DNA of 44,273 bases from Candidatus Rifleibacteriota bacterium (GTDB taxonomy: Bacteria; Muiribacteriota; Ozemobacteria; Ozemobacterales; Ozemobacteraceae), in assembly GCA_012520995.1 (NCBI GenBank), contig JAAYNI010000080.1, forward strand, positions 89,823-134,095. The letters are read 5' to 3'. Numbering within the stretch: the first letter of the stretch is position 1; each line of letters begins with the position of its first letter. This document shows positions 14,197 to 35,395 of the stretch, in pieces. Below the pieces are notes generated by a model. It was not told the DNA's origin. It saw nothing but the letters and a program-made list of their open reading frames with translations, and made no database searches. Made by a program: the position numbers and the translations under genes.

Positions 14197-15153
14197 TTAA
14201 TTAAGCTCGCCACAAGCCACCCACCACCCGTCACCACAGAATGGTGCGAGCACCTTAAGGCCTCTTGCCTTGTACTCTTTGGCTTTTATAGGATCCACTC
14301 CCTTTATAAGAGGCATATCCTTAAAAGGCACTAACCCCACATGACAAGAGTCGCAAAGATGAGCCAAATCACTTTGAGAAAGCCTGCCATGCCAGACAAC
14401 TCCAGGCATCTTAATCAGAGACTCAAAGTCTTTACCTCTTCCGCTGCCCGCAATATGCAGCACTGAGTTTGGCCTTTGGGCTATCATTTTTAGCCAATCA
14501 AAATCGATCCATTCAAAATGAGCTCCAGTGCTGAGAAAATGTGTTTTACCGTCATCAGGCGGCGATGTGGTCACAGGCGTGTTCAAAAACTCCCTTGATG
14601 GCCTGTTAGGCACAAGTTCTATCTTGTTTTTGTATCTCTCTGGCATAGAAGAGCCTATAAACGGATGAGAAACGATAATCCTGTCAGACAGCAAAAACAA
14701 AGTTTCGTCATATAGTTTAAAAGCCTCGCGATTCTGACCTGGAAAAAGACCATGCAAATCGCACTTGTCATAAATTTGAGCCTTCCATTTATATTCAGCT
14801 GAACCCAGAGAAAAAACCGGATTGGCTGTCCAAAGAACTAAATCTTCAGAATGCTCTCCTATCTTCTTTAAAAGAAGCTTAAAATAAAGCCTCGAAGCAA
14901 ATTTCTGCAAAACAGGAAAATTTGAAGCTTTAAAAGGAATTGAAGTTTTCAGAGCAATCAAACGCTCGGCCACTATTTTACGTTTCATTCCAAAAAAAGC
15001 TGATTCAGGCGGTTCAGCAAAAAAAACAGTTCGGCCGGACTCAGCCAGCAATGAAGCAAAGAGCTGATGCCTTTGCTCCAGCTGTTCAAACTTCACCGGC
15101 GATATGTAGAGTATTTTTTCCAAACTTATCTTGTCCAACTTCTTTAAAACCAC
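14197..15153 (-). CDS. Glycosyltransferase-like protein, C-terminus ending in a repeat
   Basis: A 318-residue cytoplasmic protein. The N-terminal half (ILYISPVKFEQLEQRHQLFASLLAESGRTVFFAEPP) resembles the first Rossmann domain of GT-B enzymes of the TuaH type. The C-terminal half carries the usual pattern: RIIVSHPFI, KIELVPNRPSREFL, HFLSTGAHFEWIDFDWLKMIA, SVLHIAGSGRG, VVWHGRLSQSDLAHLCDSCHVGLVPFKDMPL, and VDPIKAKEYKARGLKVLAP, where EYKARGLKV replaces the common EYLAAGKPVV. The product probably transfers a sugar to a surface polysaccharide or lipid; donor and acceptor unknown. The last 12 residues (GDGWWVACGELN, bases 14197-14235) are encoded by a copy of the intergenic GTGGTGGGTGGC repeat that also supplies the stop, so the normal end of the protein seems to have been lost. 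Confidence 0.75.
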   Translation of the reverse strand: MVLKKLDKISLEKILYISPVKFEQLEQRHQLFASLLAESGRTVFFAEPPESAFFGMKRKIVAERLIALKTSIPFKASNFPVLQKFASRLYFKLLLKKIGEHSEDLVLWTANPVFSLGSAEYKWKAQIYDKCDLHGLFPGQNREAFKLYDETLFLLSDRIIVSHPFIGSSMPERYKNKIELVPNRPSREFLNTPVTTSPPDDGKTHFLSTGAHFEWIDFDWLKMIAQRPNSVLHIAGSGRGKDFESLIKMPGVVWHGRLSQSDLAHLCDSCHVGLVPFKDMPLIKGVDPIKAKEYKARGLKVLAPFCGDGWWVACGELN

Positions 15154-15270
15154 AGAAGATCTATTTTAATGTTAAAAGATCAACAGCTCAAAACAGTTTT
15201 TAATTCTAGCAATTGAGTCTAAACAATTCCACCGTCCACTAAGCACTGTGCACTGATTTGCATCCGTCGC

Positions 15271-15304
15271 AAGAAACGTTTCATGAAACGCCAAGAAACG
15301 TTCT
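15271..15304. promoter_or_regulatory. Candidate upstream activator sites for the Hsp20 operon
   Basis: A perfect 14-base palindrome CGTTTCATGAAACG (15277-15290) is flanked by two direct copies of AAGAAACGTT (15271-15280 and 15293-15302). They lie about 80-110 bases upstream of the predicted transcription start, the usual position for sigma-54 activator binding sites. The binding protein is not known. Confidence 0.55.
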
Positions 15305-15366
15305 ATAAAATTATAGCAAAGTAGCATTGTTTTCTCAAACCCTTTCACAGAGCACATTTCAAAAGT

Positions 15367-15381
15367 TGGCACGTCATTTGC
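15367..15381 (+). promoter_or_regulatory. Sigma-54 (-24/-12) promoter for the Hsp20 operon
   Basis: TGGCAC-GTCAT-TTGC matches the RpoN consensus TGGCAC-N5-TTGC, with the GG (15368-15369) and GC (15380-15381) doublets 12 bases apart. Transcription would start near 15393, leaving a leader of about 40 bases before the AGGAGG of the first Hsp20 gene. Confidence 0.8.
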
Positions 15382-15433
15382 GTTATATATTGGTGAAAAT
15401 TAATTGAAGGATTTACAGCTAGGAGGAAATACT

Positions 15434-15883
15434 ATGACAATATGGAACTTTTTAAAAGAAATGGAAGATTTACAAACTGAGCTTGGCAAACTCGCCAATG
15501 CGAGCAGTTTTTACGGACTGCCACGGACATCCTTCTTGCCAGGTCTCTCCCCCAGGATGTTCCCAATGATTAACCTGAGCGACGCAGGCGACGACATACT
15601 TCTCGAAGCTATGGCTCCGGGACTGGATCCTGAATCACTCAACGTCACGGCTCTTAAAAACCAGATAACAATTTCAGGACAAAAAGCTGCTCTGGAAACA
15701 GAAAGAGAAAATATTCACAGAAGCGAAAGAGCTGCAGGCAAGTTCACAAGAACTATTGAGCTTCCCCTTCCCGTAGAAACTGACAAAATCGAAGCTTCCT
15801 ACGCGAACGGCATACTCAAAGTGACTCTTCCCAAAGCGGAAGAAGCCAAGCCTCGCCAAATTTCGATTGACGTGAAAAACTGA
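15434..15883 (+). CDS. Hsp20 family small heat-shock protein (first of two)
   Basis: The start is the ATG at 15434, with AGGAGG 7 bases upstream; a TTG 30 bases earlier is in frame but lies before that Shine-Dalgarno. The 149-residue product has an N-terminal arm (MTIWNFLKEMEDLQTELGKL) and an alpha-crystallin domain from about residue 50 (PMINLSDAGDDILLEAMAPGLDPESLNVTALKNQITISG) with the conserved A.G.LKVTLPK motif seen here as YANGILKVTLPKAEEAKPRQI near the C-terminus. These are ATP-independent holdases of the cytoplasm that bind unfolded proteins and form oligomers. The second Hsp20 gene follows after 13 bases in the same operon. Expression is predicted from the sigma-54 promoter at 15367. 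Confidence 0.95.
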   Translation: MTIWNFLKEMEDLQTELGKLANASSFYGLPRTSFLPGLSPRMFPMINLSDAGDDILLEAMAPGLDPESLNVTALKNQITISGQKAALETERENIHRSERAAGKFTRTIELPLPVETDKIEASYANGILKVTLPKAEEAKPRQISIDVKN

Positions 15884-15896
15884 AAGGAGCCCAGCC

Positions 15897-16301
15897 ATGA
15901 CTGAAAAAAATATAACTAATCAAGAAAAAGACTCTAAATTGATCAAACGTGAAATCACTAGACAAGCGGAAAACTATGTAACCCCCGCTACTGATATATA
16001 TGAAGACGACAAAGGCTTAAGAATGCTGGTAGATTTGCCAGGCGTTACCAAAGACGGTTTAAACCTTCATGTAAATGACAATGTTCTCACAATTGAAGCC
16101 AAAGTAGATGTGCCTCAAAAGGACAAGAGCTATATTCTGAGAGAGTTCTCAACTCCTTCATACTACAGGCAGTTCGATTTATGCGAACTGGTAGACGAAG
16201 ATGCTATAGAAGCTGAACTTAAAAACGGCGTACTGCATGTCTCGCTGCCAAAAGCCAAAGAAAATATGCCAAAACAGATCCAAGTTAAAGTGGAAGGCTG
16301 A
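15897..16301 (+). CDS. Hsp20 family small heat-shock protein (second of two)
   Basis: A 134-residue protein with AAAGGAG 8 bases before its ATG. The alpha-crystallin domain spans about residues 35-130: PATDIYEDDKGLRMLVDLPGVTKDGLNLHVNDNVLTIEAK and ELKNGVLHVSLPKAKENMPKQIQVKVEG, with the conserved L.GV and A/GVL.V.LPK signatures. It differs clearly in sequence from the preceding Hsp20, so the pair is an old duplication or two subclasses that may form hetero-oligomers. It lies in the same sigma-54-controlled operon. The stop is followed within 20 bases by an intergenic GTGGGTAGTGGCTAGTG repeat; no terminator hairpin with a T-run was recognised directly after it. Confidence 0.95.
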   Translation: MTEKNITNQEKDSKLIKREITRQAENYVTPATDIYEDDKGLRMLVDLPGVTKDGLNLHVNDNVLTIEAKVDVPQKDKSYILREFSTPSYYRQFDLCELVDEDAIEAELKNGVLHVSLPKAKENMPKQIQVKVEG

Positions 16302-16674
16302 TAACAACAGTGTATAGCTGATGGTGGGTAGTGGCTAGTGAAATTGTTTAGATTCAATTGCTAAAACTGACAACTGCTTTAAGAAGCCGATAAATAACCC
16401 TTGTTATCTTTGGCAGCTACCCCCCCCTTTCCGCTCACTGAATACTAAAAGTTATTCCATAAACACAGCTTGTGCTAATGCATAGGCTGTGTTCATTTTT
16501 ACACTTTCTCTATACATTTTACATTATCAAAACCCGTCACCGCTACTGCCTGTCCGTTGTCCTTTCTGCCATTGCCCACCAGTCACAACCCACCGTTTGT
16601 TACAGTCTGAATGAAGGAATTCTCGACTTTAGCAATCTGTTTTTAAAAGAAATTAAGTTAAGCAAAATATTTAA
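16302..16674. repeat. Intergenic repeat region after the Hsp20 operon
   Basis: No gene supported. It carries GGTGGGTAGTGGCTAGTGAA near 16322-16341 running into TTGTTTAGATTCAATTGC, a C7 tract at 16423-16429, and a CACC/CCAC-rich repeat stretch around 16534-16597. A 74-codon frame (16472-16696) crosses these repeats and has neither a Shine-Dalgarno nor recognisable content. Confidence 0.6.
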
Positions 16675-34001: not shown

Positions 34002-34355
34002 TTAAAAATCTTTGGACGCTTCTTCAAGGCTGTCGTAGGTTTTGATTATATGCTGCAATTGAATGAGTTGGAAAATTCCGTAAATGTAGGCGTTCAGGTT
34101 GATAAGCATCAGCTCGCCGCCGGCATTTTTTAACTTTTTCAGAGTGCCGATAAAAAAGCCCAAACCCGCTGAATCTATGTAATTGGTTCTCTCAAGATCC
34201 AGTACGACTTTGACTTTGCCGTTGTCTATAAGTTTTTGCATTTCCTGCTTTGCCAGGTGCAAAGACCACATATCCAAATCGCCAATCAGCGAAAGGACAA
34301 CGTAACCCTTTTCGGCATCTTTCAGTTCAAATGTCAGTTTGGTTTCTTTTTCCAC
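34002..34355 (-). CDS. STAS-domain protein, anti-sigma factor antagonist type
   Basis: A 117-residue protein starting at GTG 34353-34355 with AAGGAG 9 bases upstream. It is a single STAS domain: [66 protein letters not shown]. The DSAGLG motif (61-66) keeps the Ser62 that kinases of the RsbW/SpoIIAB type phosphorylate in anti-sigma antagonists. No kinase or phosphatase partner is encoded in the window. It lies 86 bases after the stand-alone sigma-54 activator and directly before rpmE; its partner switch is probably elsewhere. Confidence 0.92.
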
Positions 34356-34441: not shown

Positions 34442-35395
34442 TTAATCAGCCAATTTTGATCTTAAGGTTTTAGGATCTATTTTCAGGAGTTTGGCCGCTC
34501 TAAGTTTGTTGCCGCCTGTATATTCCAAAACCTGCCTCACATATATTTTTTCCATCTCCGCCAAGGTCAAAATCTTGCCTTCTTCAGGAAAATCAGCAGG
34601 CATAGCAGATGGCTTCGATATTTTCTCAGGCAAATCTTCTGGCTTTATAATCTCGTCTCTTACCAAGACAGCCGCTCTTTCTATCACATTTCTGAGTTCG
34701 CGCACATTGCCTGGCCAAGAATAGTTCAGTAAAGTGTACATTGCCTCTTGACTTACCTTAAGACCCATTTTGCCATATTTCTGCTTAAATTCCTGAATAA
34801 AAGAATCTACCAGTTGAGGCAAATCCTCCATTCTTTCACGCAAAGGCGGCATGTGGATTTCAACCACATTTAACCTATAATAAAGATCCTCGCGGAAATT
34901 GCCTCGGCTTATCTCATCTGCAAGCTCTTTGTTGGTAGCAGAAATAATTCTCACATCTGTTCTTATAGACTCGCTGCCGCCTATTCGTTCGAACTTCTGA
35001 TCCTGCAGAACGCGCAATAGCTTAGCTTGAGTTATCAGAGACATGTCGCCTATTTCATCGAAAAAGAGAGTTCCGCCGTCAGCTCTTTCAAAGCAGCCTT
35101 CTTGCCGCGCTATGGCGCCTGTAAAAGCGCCCTTTTCGTGTCCGAACATCTGACTTTCAAGAAGTTCTGTCGGAATAGCCGCACAGTTCATCTTAAGATA
35201 TGGCTTCTTTTTTCGCCTGCTCTTTTCGTGAATGGCATTTGCGGCCATTTCCTTACCGGTTCCTGATTCGCCTGTAATAAGCACAGTGACATTGCTGTCA
35301 GCTACTTGGTCTATAAGGCTTATAGCTTCCTGAATTGCGCTTCCTGAACCTAAAATGTCCTGAGTCAAACTATTCTCCTGAGTCTCCTGAAACAA
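34442..35395 (-). CDS. Stand-alone sigma-54 activator (AAA+ and Fis-type HTH)
   Basis: A 317-residue protein with the full AAA+ module: Walker A GESGTGKE (42-49), the sigma-54 contact loop GAFTGA (89-94), Walker B GGTLFFDEIG (107-116), the arginine-finger region GNFREDLYYRLNVVEIHMPPLRERMEDLP and the SWPGNVRELRNVIERAAVL sensor II segment. A Fis-type helix-turn-helix closes it (GGNKLRAAKLLKIDPKTLRSKL). There is no receiver, PAS or GAF domain before the AAA+ module, as in PspF, so activity must be set by another protein or by amount. The start could be ATG 35395 or a TTG 27 bases later that has CAGGAG just upstream. It is the only sigma-54 activator in the window and a candidate, not proven, for the Hsp20 promoter at 15367. 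Confidence 0.95.
   Translation of the reverse strand: MFQETQENSLTQDILGSGSAIQEAISLIDQVADSNVTVLITGESGTGKEMAANAIHEKSRRKKKPYLKMNCAAIPTELLESQMFGHEKGAFTGAIARQEGCFERADGGTLFFDEIGDMSLITQAKLLRVLQDQKFERIGGSESIRTDVRIISATNKELADEISRGNFREDLYYRLNVVEIHMPPLRERMEDLPQLVDSFIQEFKQKYGKMGLKVSQEAMYTLLNYSWPGNVRELRNVIERAAVLVRDEIIKPEDLPEKISKPSAMPADFPEEGKILTLAEMEKIYVRQVLEYTGGNKLRAAKLLKIDPKTLRSKLAD

Follow-up and report, generated by a model that had tools for sequence, protein, structure and literature searches.

The stretch of DNA analysed here (hereafter the window) comprises 44,273 nucleotides of contig JAAYNI010000080.1 from a Candidatus Rifleibacteriota genome, for which the nearest named genomes are Riflebacteria-type MAGs (Ca. 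Rifleibacterium, HGW-Riflebacteria-1, and Ca. Ozemobacter). It encodes two small heat-shock proteins on the plus strand, the first at 15434..15883 (149 aa; PF00011, 1.4e-20) and the second, after a gap of 13 bp, at 15897..16301 (134 aa; PF00011, 7.7e-21). A ribosome binding site (AGGAGG, 15421..15426, +) can be recognized by eye, and 67 bp before the ATG of the first gene is an RpoN (-24/-12) promoter, TGGCACGTCATTTGC (15367..15381, +), which matches TGGCAY-N5-TTGC with GG and GC in register. The window contains a single TGGCAC-N5-TTGC, at precisely this position (9 of 100 shuffled versions contain a copy), and RpoN is encoded in the same genome (PF04552, 3.8e-58). Given the usual spacing to the -12 element, transcription would be expected to start at 15392..15394 (+). 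A terminator-like hairpin 3′ of the operon (16462..16493, +) comes from a consensus scan only, which returned two such hairpins in the scanned stretch when 1.7 were expected by chance.

Upstream of the promoter there are two putative activator sites at enhancer distance. Site 1, the palindrome GAAACGTTTC (15273..15282), is 94 bp upstream of the -24 element and is the counterpart of GCRACGTYGC, the usual palindrome in relatives, where it is typically found 70–74 bp upstream of the -24 element. Site 2, the imperfect palindrome GAAACGTTCT (15295..15304), is 72 bp upstream and sits where the relatives have GCRACGTYGC (mostly -70 to -74). The distance from site 1 to site 2 is 22 bp, or about two helical turns. 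Site 1 is overlapped by another palindrome, CGTTTCATGAAACG (15277..15290, the sole exact copy in the window), and the overlapping form is kept in a related locus (L048) as CGTTGCATGCAACG. An earlier sequence-only reading of this DNA had placed palindromes 80–110 bases upstream of the start. The palindromes are indeed there, but the distance was approximate at best, as AAGAAACGTT has two perfect copies in the window, one (15271-15280) beginning 96 bp before the -24 element and 163 bp before the ATG, and the other (15293-15302) beginning 74 and 141 bp before them. One-mismatch copies of AAGAAACGTT elsewhere in the window are at chance level (nine in all vs. 5.78 expected). Similarly, a two-box pattern, GAAACGTT-N14-GAAACGTT with up to two mismatches, matched the genome that carries the window 11 times, compared with 20 for the reversed pattern, and is thus attributable to chance apart from the two of the 11 that fall at the hsp20 site.

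To evaluate conservation, the first Hsp20 protein was used as a query on 56 genomes, 24 of which (the window's own included) belong to the same family. Strong matches were found in 20 family genomes besides its own, with none in G012, G018, and G022, and motifs were counted in the 300 bp upstream of hsp20 in these 20 relatives plus the window. All 20 relatives have TGGCAY-N5-(T/A)TGC 64–104 bp before the hsp20 ATG, so that, with the window, all 21 upstream regions have the RpoN promoter (mean 0.04, maximum 1, in 500 shuffle sets). The palindrome class G[CA][GA]ACGT[CT][GT]C occurs in 16 of the 21, window included (shuffle mean 0.11, maximum 2, also 500 sets); of the remaining five, L044, L054, L060, and L062 have half-sites only, and L051 has none. 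The combination of promoter and sites is thereby confirmed as real and conserved, and looks functional, and the earlier recognition of an RpoN promoter in front of two hsp20 genes is borne out.

The same arrangement appears once more in the genome. As had been suggested, we scanned it for the palindrome near RpoN promoters, and the pattern AACGTT-N66-96-TGGCAY-N5-WTGC has exactly two matches, one upstream of hsp20 and the other upstream of clpB (none for the reversed pattern). The clpB promoter is TGGCATAAAATTTGC, with GAAACGTTGC-GCATCGTAGC 103 bp upstream; the site, GAAACGTTGC, is only half changed. The other seven exact TGGCAC-N5-TTGC sites of this genome have no G-NN-ACGT-NN-C palindrome in the 250 bp upstream. 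Incidentally, with up to one mismatch TGGCAC-N5-TTGC has 202 matches in the genome, vs. 46 for the reversed pattern, making many further RpoN targets probable.

Of the 24 genomes used to collect ClpB, 15 belong to the family; G007 (64% complete) and G009 (67%) lack a full ClpB match, and the other 13 family genomes contribute 14 loci. Upstream of clpB, TGGCAY-N5-(T/A)TGN is found in 13 of these 14 loci, seven with a perfect final TGC and six with a deviating -12 element. The exact palindrome is present in seven loci and half-sites in five more; the exceptions are L260, where the sequence ends 77 bp upstream, and L278, which has neither palindrome nor half-sites. Outside the family, the palindrome was found upstream of none of the four clpB loci parsed. 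Overall, on motif evidence, hsp20 and clpB appear to share one switch consisting of an RpoN promoter and a palindromic activator site.

A gapped pattern (ACGTYKC, 56–86 bases, TGGCAY-N5-TTGC) applied to the 56 genomes gave 31 places, 24 of them in 13 of the 24 family genomes and seven in the 32 other genomes; the reversed control gave two in the family and one outside. The hsp20 promoter is among the matches in all 13 family genomes that have any, and one match outside the family is also at an hsp20 gene (G037). Other family matches are upstream of clpB (G008 and G016) and dnaK (G002), and there are further places at G021:C216 and G023:C291, an ambiguous one at G004:C246, and one at G016:C8 that looks intragenic. 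In G010 and G021 (L235 and L251), a 59-residue hydrophobic protein (MLAIYISLVVVGVMMAVVG...) with no Pfam match is preceded by the same combination of palindrome and RpoN promoter, the latter about 40 bp away.

In this genome, groEL, hrcA, grpE, dnaK, and dnaJ are clustered on contig C31, and groEL is preceded by a CIRCE element (TTAGCACTC-N9-GAGTGCTAA). On this contig (L346), two different groEL genes precede hrcA-grpE-dnaK-dnaJ under the one CIRCE element. The clpB promoter has no CIRCE. RpoN-like sites at dnaK were seen among the family loci only in G001, G002, and G004, and are absent from the window's own genome. Given CIRCE on the groEL cluster and RpoN plus palindrome on hsp20 and clpB, control by HrcA seems to fall on the folding chaperones and control by RpoN on the disaggregation chaperones; in other words, the latter look like a small RpoN regulon beside the HrcA regulon.

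Seven sigma-54 activators score strongly in the genome. One of these, a 368 aa protein encoded on contig C69 (G000:C69:76463-77566; PF00158, 227.2 bits; PF02954, 30 bits), has the AAA+ sigma-54 interaction domain, GAFTGA loop, and Fis-type HTH of bacterial enhancer-binding proteins. We searched the flanks of 110 hsp20 loci (L043-L072 and L084-L163) for activator genes and found one in two loci, L101 and L115. In L101, from a MAG named Deltaproteobacteria that the tree tool places in Myxococcota, the activator gene immediately precedes an hsp20 pair in the same orientation, and the intervening DNA contains GCGACGTTGC and GCAACGTCGC. The best full-length counterpart of the L101 activator in the window's genome, HTH included, is the C69 protein. 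It should be noted that in another locus, L098, only the C-terminal HTH part of an activator is encoded upstream of hsp20 (2600-2790), beside unrelated coding sequence, and that an activator gene is cut off by the end of another contig from that genome; an assembly join may be the cause.

Orthologs of the C69 protein were found in 22 of the 24 family genomes, its own included (E 1.2e-106 or better). The other two, G002 and G020 (79% and 69% complete), have hsp20 and the promoter and no clear ortholog (best E 1.1e-74 and 3.4e-69), and the activator occurs without an hsp20 match in G018 (95% complete), G012, and G022. The C69-type gene and hsp20 are on one contig in eight of the 19 genomes having both, with the activator always upstream, on the same strand, and 4–80 kb away. 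Outside the family, an ortholog was found in three of the 29 hsp20-bearing genomes searched, those with loci L091, L098, and L101 (E 1.3e-120 or better; the next match has 5.4e-85). Among the 74 non-family hsp20 loci, the same three, and no others, have an upstream palindrome. The Fisher value for this coincidence (2.7e-4) overstates the case because the 31 genomes of the ortholog survey were hand-picked out of 80 when the motif had already been seen in L098 and L101, and L101, as the source of the query protein, matches itself. In a quick tree, all 25 C69-group proteins form one branch (SH-aLRT 99). As none of the NCBIfam equivalogs scores above its cut-off with the C69 protein, this orthologous group is unnamed in NCBIfam. 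The sigma-54-contacting loop reads GSFTGA in 21 of the 22 family orthologs, and GAFTGA in the window genome's own protein and in L101.

The sequence-only reading had named a different candidate, encoded within the window at 34442..35395 (-), and described it as a PspF-like activator without a sensing domain. The lack of a sensor is correct (the protein consists of PF00158, lid, and Fis-type HTH only), and with the PspF family TIGR02974 it scores 273.9, under the cut-off of 443.55. A STAS-domain protein encoded just downstream on the same strand (34002-34355) is a possible partner of this activator. That the 34442 protein drives the hsp20 promoter has some appeal, given that it is sensor-less, is encoded 19 kb from hsp20 on the same contig, and has an ortholog in 17 of the 21 hsp20-bearing family genomes. 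However, G005 (93% complete) has no ortholog (best E 3.7e-81, whereas all accepted family orthologs have at least 9.6e-120) yet keeps the hsp20 operon, promoter, and half-sites; the recognition helix, IDPKTLR, is invariant in all 19 members of this type, the window's included, though the window's upstream site has drifted; and linkage is weak (on the hsp20 contig in three of 17 genomes, on the opposite strand, 19–160 kb apart). Furthermore, the hsp20-adjacent activator of L101 groups with C69 and not with the 34442 type. We therefore regard this assignment as improbable, and judge that the earlier reading, correct on the promoter and sites, probably picked the wrong activator. We consider it similarly doubtful that one of the remaining activators of this genome (C27a, C39, C41b, C62, or C27b) binds the palindromes. 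There are seven clear candidates in all and the ortholog survey in relatives covered two of them, but none of these five groups with the L101 hsp20-adjacent protein in the tree, and it is C69 that gives the best full-length match to it. The C69 protein thus fits better than the 34442 protein and, judged from these sequence comparisons, is the most likely activator.

Alternatives to the arrangement itself carry very little weight. The palindromes could in principle be the operator of a divergent gene (14197-15153, -) and unrelated to hsp20. This gene has a strong sigma-70-like promoter match at 15338-15310 (-) (TTGAGA, 17, TATAAT; 11 of 12 matches, with TG before the second hexamer) that overlaps or adjoins the palindromes, and a protein bound there might for this reason repress the divergent gene too. 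Nevertheless, a scan of 38 related hsp20 loci turned up no homolog of the gene, whereas the palindrome is retained with hsp20, and the motif also precedes clpB, so we think it highly unlikely that the divergent gene accounts for the sites. It is just as hard to credit that the operon is mainly under a heat-shock sigma factor, HrcA/CIRCE, or an RNA thermometer, with an incidental RpoN match. HrcA and CIRCE do exist in this genome, but no CIRCE match was found in the window, and the RpoN promoter is present at every one of the 21 family hsp20 loci. An RNA thermometer is unsupported, as there was no Rfam match to ROSE or any other known thermometer at 15100-16500 (E 0.1) and the hsp20 leader folds no better than its shuffles (z 0.90).

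Returning to the C69 group, the recognition helix reads H(K/R)AT(F/L)YR in 19 of 22 family orthologs, HKSTFYR in the window's genome, and HKTTFYR in G005 and G012; it contains HRAT in L101, L348, and the L098 fragment. The Ala to Ser change in the window's genome accompanies a site with GAAACG instead of GCRACG, and the joint change of site (GC to GA) and helix is suggestive. The covariation of helix Ala vs. Ser with sites GCAACGTTGC vs. GAAACGTTTC is weak, because Ala to Ser is one event, G005 and G012 have Thr although G005 retains half-sites of the GC type, and half of the clpB site in the window's genome is unchanged.

About 130 extra N-terminal residues are present in 16 of the 22 family orthologs, and also in L101 and L348. 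This extension has no Pfam name. The VIA alignment of the full-length model covered the AAA+ part only, and the N-terminal domain was hence modelled separately. The resulting AlphaFold model (mean pLDDT 80.6) resembles PAS and LOV domains both by Foldseek (best E 1.9e-4) and by VIA (Z 10–12). Six orthologs are sensor-less (those of the window's own genome, G005, G012, G014, G018, and G019), and they group together with a support of 97; a short LLLP-type N-terminus is left in the window genome's protein and the G014 group. By this model, the extension present in most family orthologs is a PAS-fold domain that the lineage of the window has lost, with one loss the simplest account, since the six sensor-less proteins group together.

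Taken together, we consider it likely that the hsp20-hsp20 operon is transcribed by RpoN RNA polymerase and activated by a dedicated C69-type protein at the tandem palindromes, which would also activate clpB, with groEL/dnaK left to HrcA/CIRCE. In this model, the 368-aa protein would bind as dimers about 72–94 bp upstream of the -24 element, form an AAA+ ring, loop the DNA, and remodel the closed complex. Holdases and disaggregase would then be induced together, as they would have a common activator. The elements of the model that can be read from the genomes themselves are the promoter, the sites, their conservation, the two-gene set, CIRCE on groEL, RpoN, and the activator orthologs; binding, the choice of activator, the signal (heat or misfolded proteins), and the control of the sensor-less form are inferences. 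Heat induction of the operon would be expected from the identity of its genes. Having lost the sensor domain, the protein in the lineage of the window must be controlled through its AAA+ domain, its abundance, or a partner (e.g., by release of the activator from a chaperone).

A broader proposal, for which we see the case as evenly balanced, is that this unnamed group of sigma-54 activators is a dedicated proteotoxic-stress regulator recognizing GCRACGTYGC. Small heat-shock proteins and ClpB (and, in a few species, DnaK) would be under RpoN, and the response would be split into an RpoN disaggregation arm and an HrcA/CIRCE folding arm. In the window's lineage, where the PAS-fold sensor has been lost, the signal would have to pass directly to the AAA+ ring, e.g., by chaperone titration. 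An RpoN regulon of this kind, conserved and devoted to disaggregation chaperones, would bring a further mode of control with little basal leak and a strict requirement for ATP-driven activation. Moreover, a natural pair of activators with and without a PAS-fold domain offers a way to ask how protein damage is sensed, and the GCRACGTYGC motif together with the activator group provides a handle for finding the system elsewhere.

Heat-shock control is usually described in terms of RpoH, HrcA, HspR, or RNA thermometers. Of these, HrcA/CIRCE is shared by the genome described here, on the groEL cluster, but is not at its hsp20 or clpB promoters. PspF is a sensor-less activator of the phage-shock operon. 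The C69 protein resembles it in having AAA+ and Fis-type HTH domains without a sensory domain, and its AAA+ fold matches that of PspF (Z about 27), but it scores 288.3 bits with the PspF family TIGR02974, below the cut-off of 443.55, its relatives mostly keep a PAS-fold domain, and the target genes are different. Literature searches with the exact motif strings returned no bacterial heat-shock promoter among the matches listed, and no Riflebacteria paper was among the matches listed from the open-licence literature. Wordings for sigma-54-dependent heat shock had no match there; as only open-licence papers were covered, absence from them proves little. Among the matches listed, no title or start of an abstract joins the motif, clpB, hsp20, and the activator, and a study of sigma-54 in Desulfovibrio (PMC4641369) mentions heat shock, in the available portions, only among its references.

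Three further reported systems are comparable. Escherichia coli ibpB is likewise a small heat-shock gene with a sigma-54 promoter, in combination with sigma-32 according to the title of the report (Kuczynska-Wisnik et al. 2001, cited in PMC8155344 and PMC3252397), but in our case there is a family-wide regulon that includes clpB, a common palindrome, and a candidate dedicated activator. In Myxococcus xanthus, HsfBA drives lonD, described in excerpts of that work as an NtrC-type activator directly driving a heat-shock gene (PMC9109919). HsfA, in the same excerpts, is a response regulator in a phosphorelay (PMC9109919). The C69 protein has no Pfam match to a receiver family, its type is PAS-bearing or sensor-less, and its target genes are different. 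Finally, a 2025 comparative study (PMC12316311) assigned predicted sigma-54 promoters to heat-shock COGs of Planctomycetota and Bacteroidota. It shares with our case the predicted sigma-54 control of heat-shock genes outside Pseudomonadota, there of the IbpA, GroEL, and DnaK types, but its predictions are at the COG level, its excerpts give neither an activator nor an upstream site for these genes, and Riflebacteria are absent from its main text. As far as the open-licence literature shows, RpoN control of small heat-shock genes is therefore known in kind, and the novelty here consists of a conserved motif, its occurrence at clpB together with hsp20, and the group of activators.
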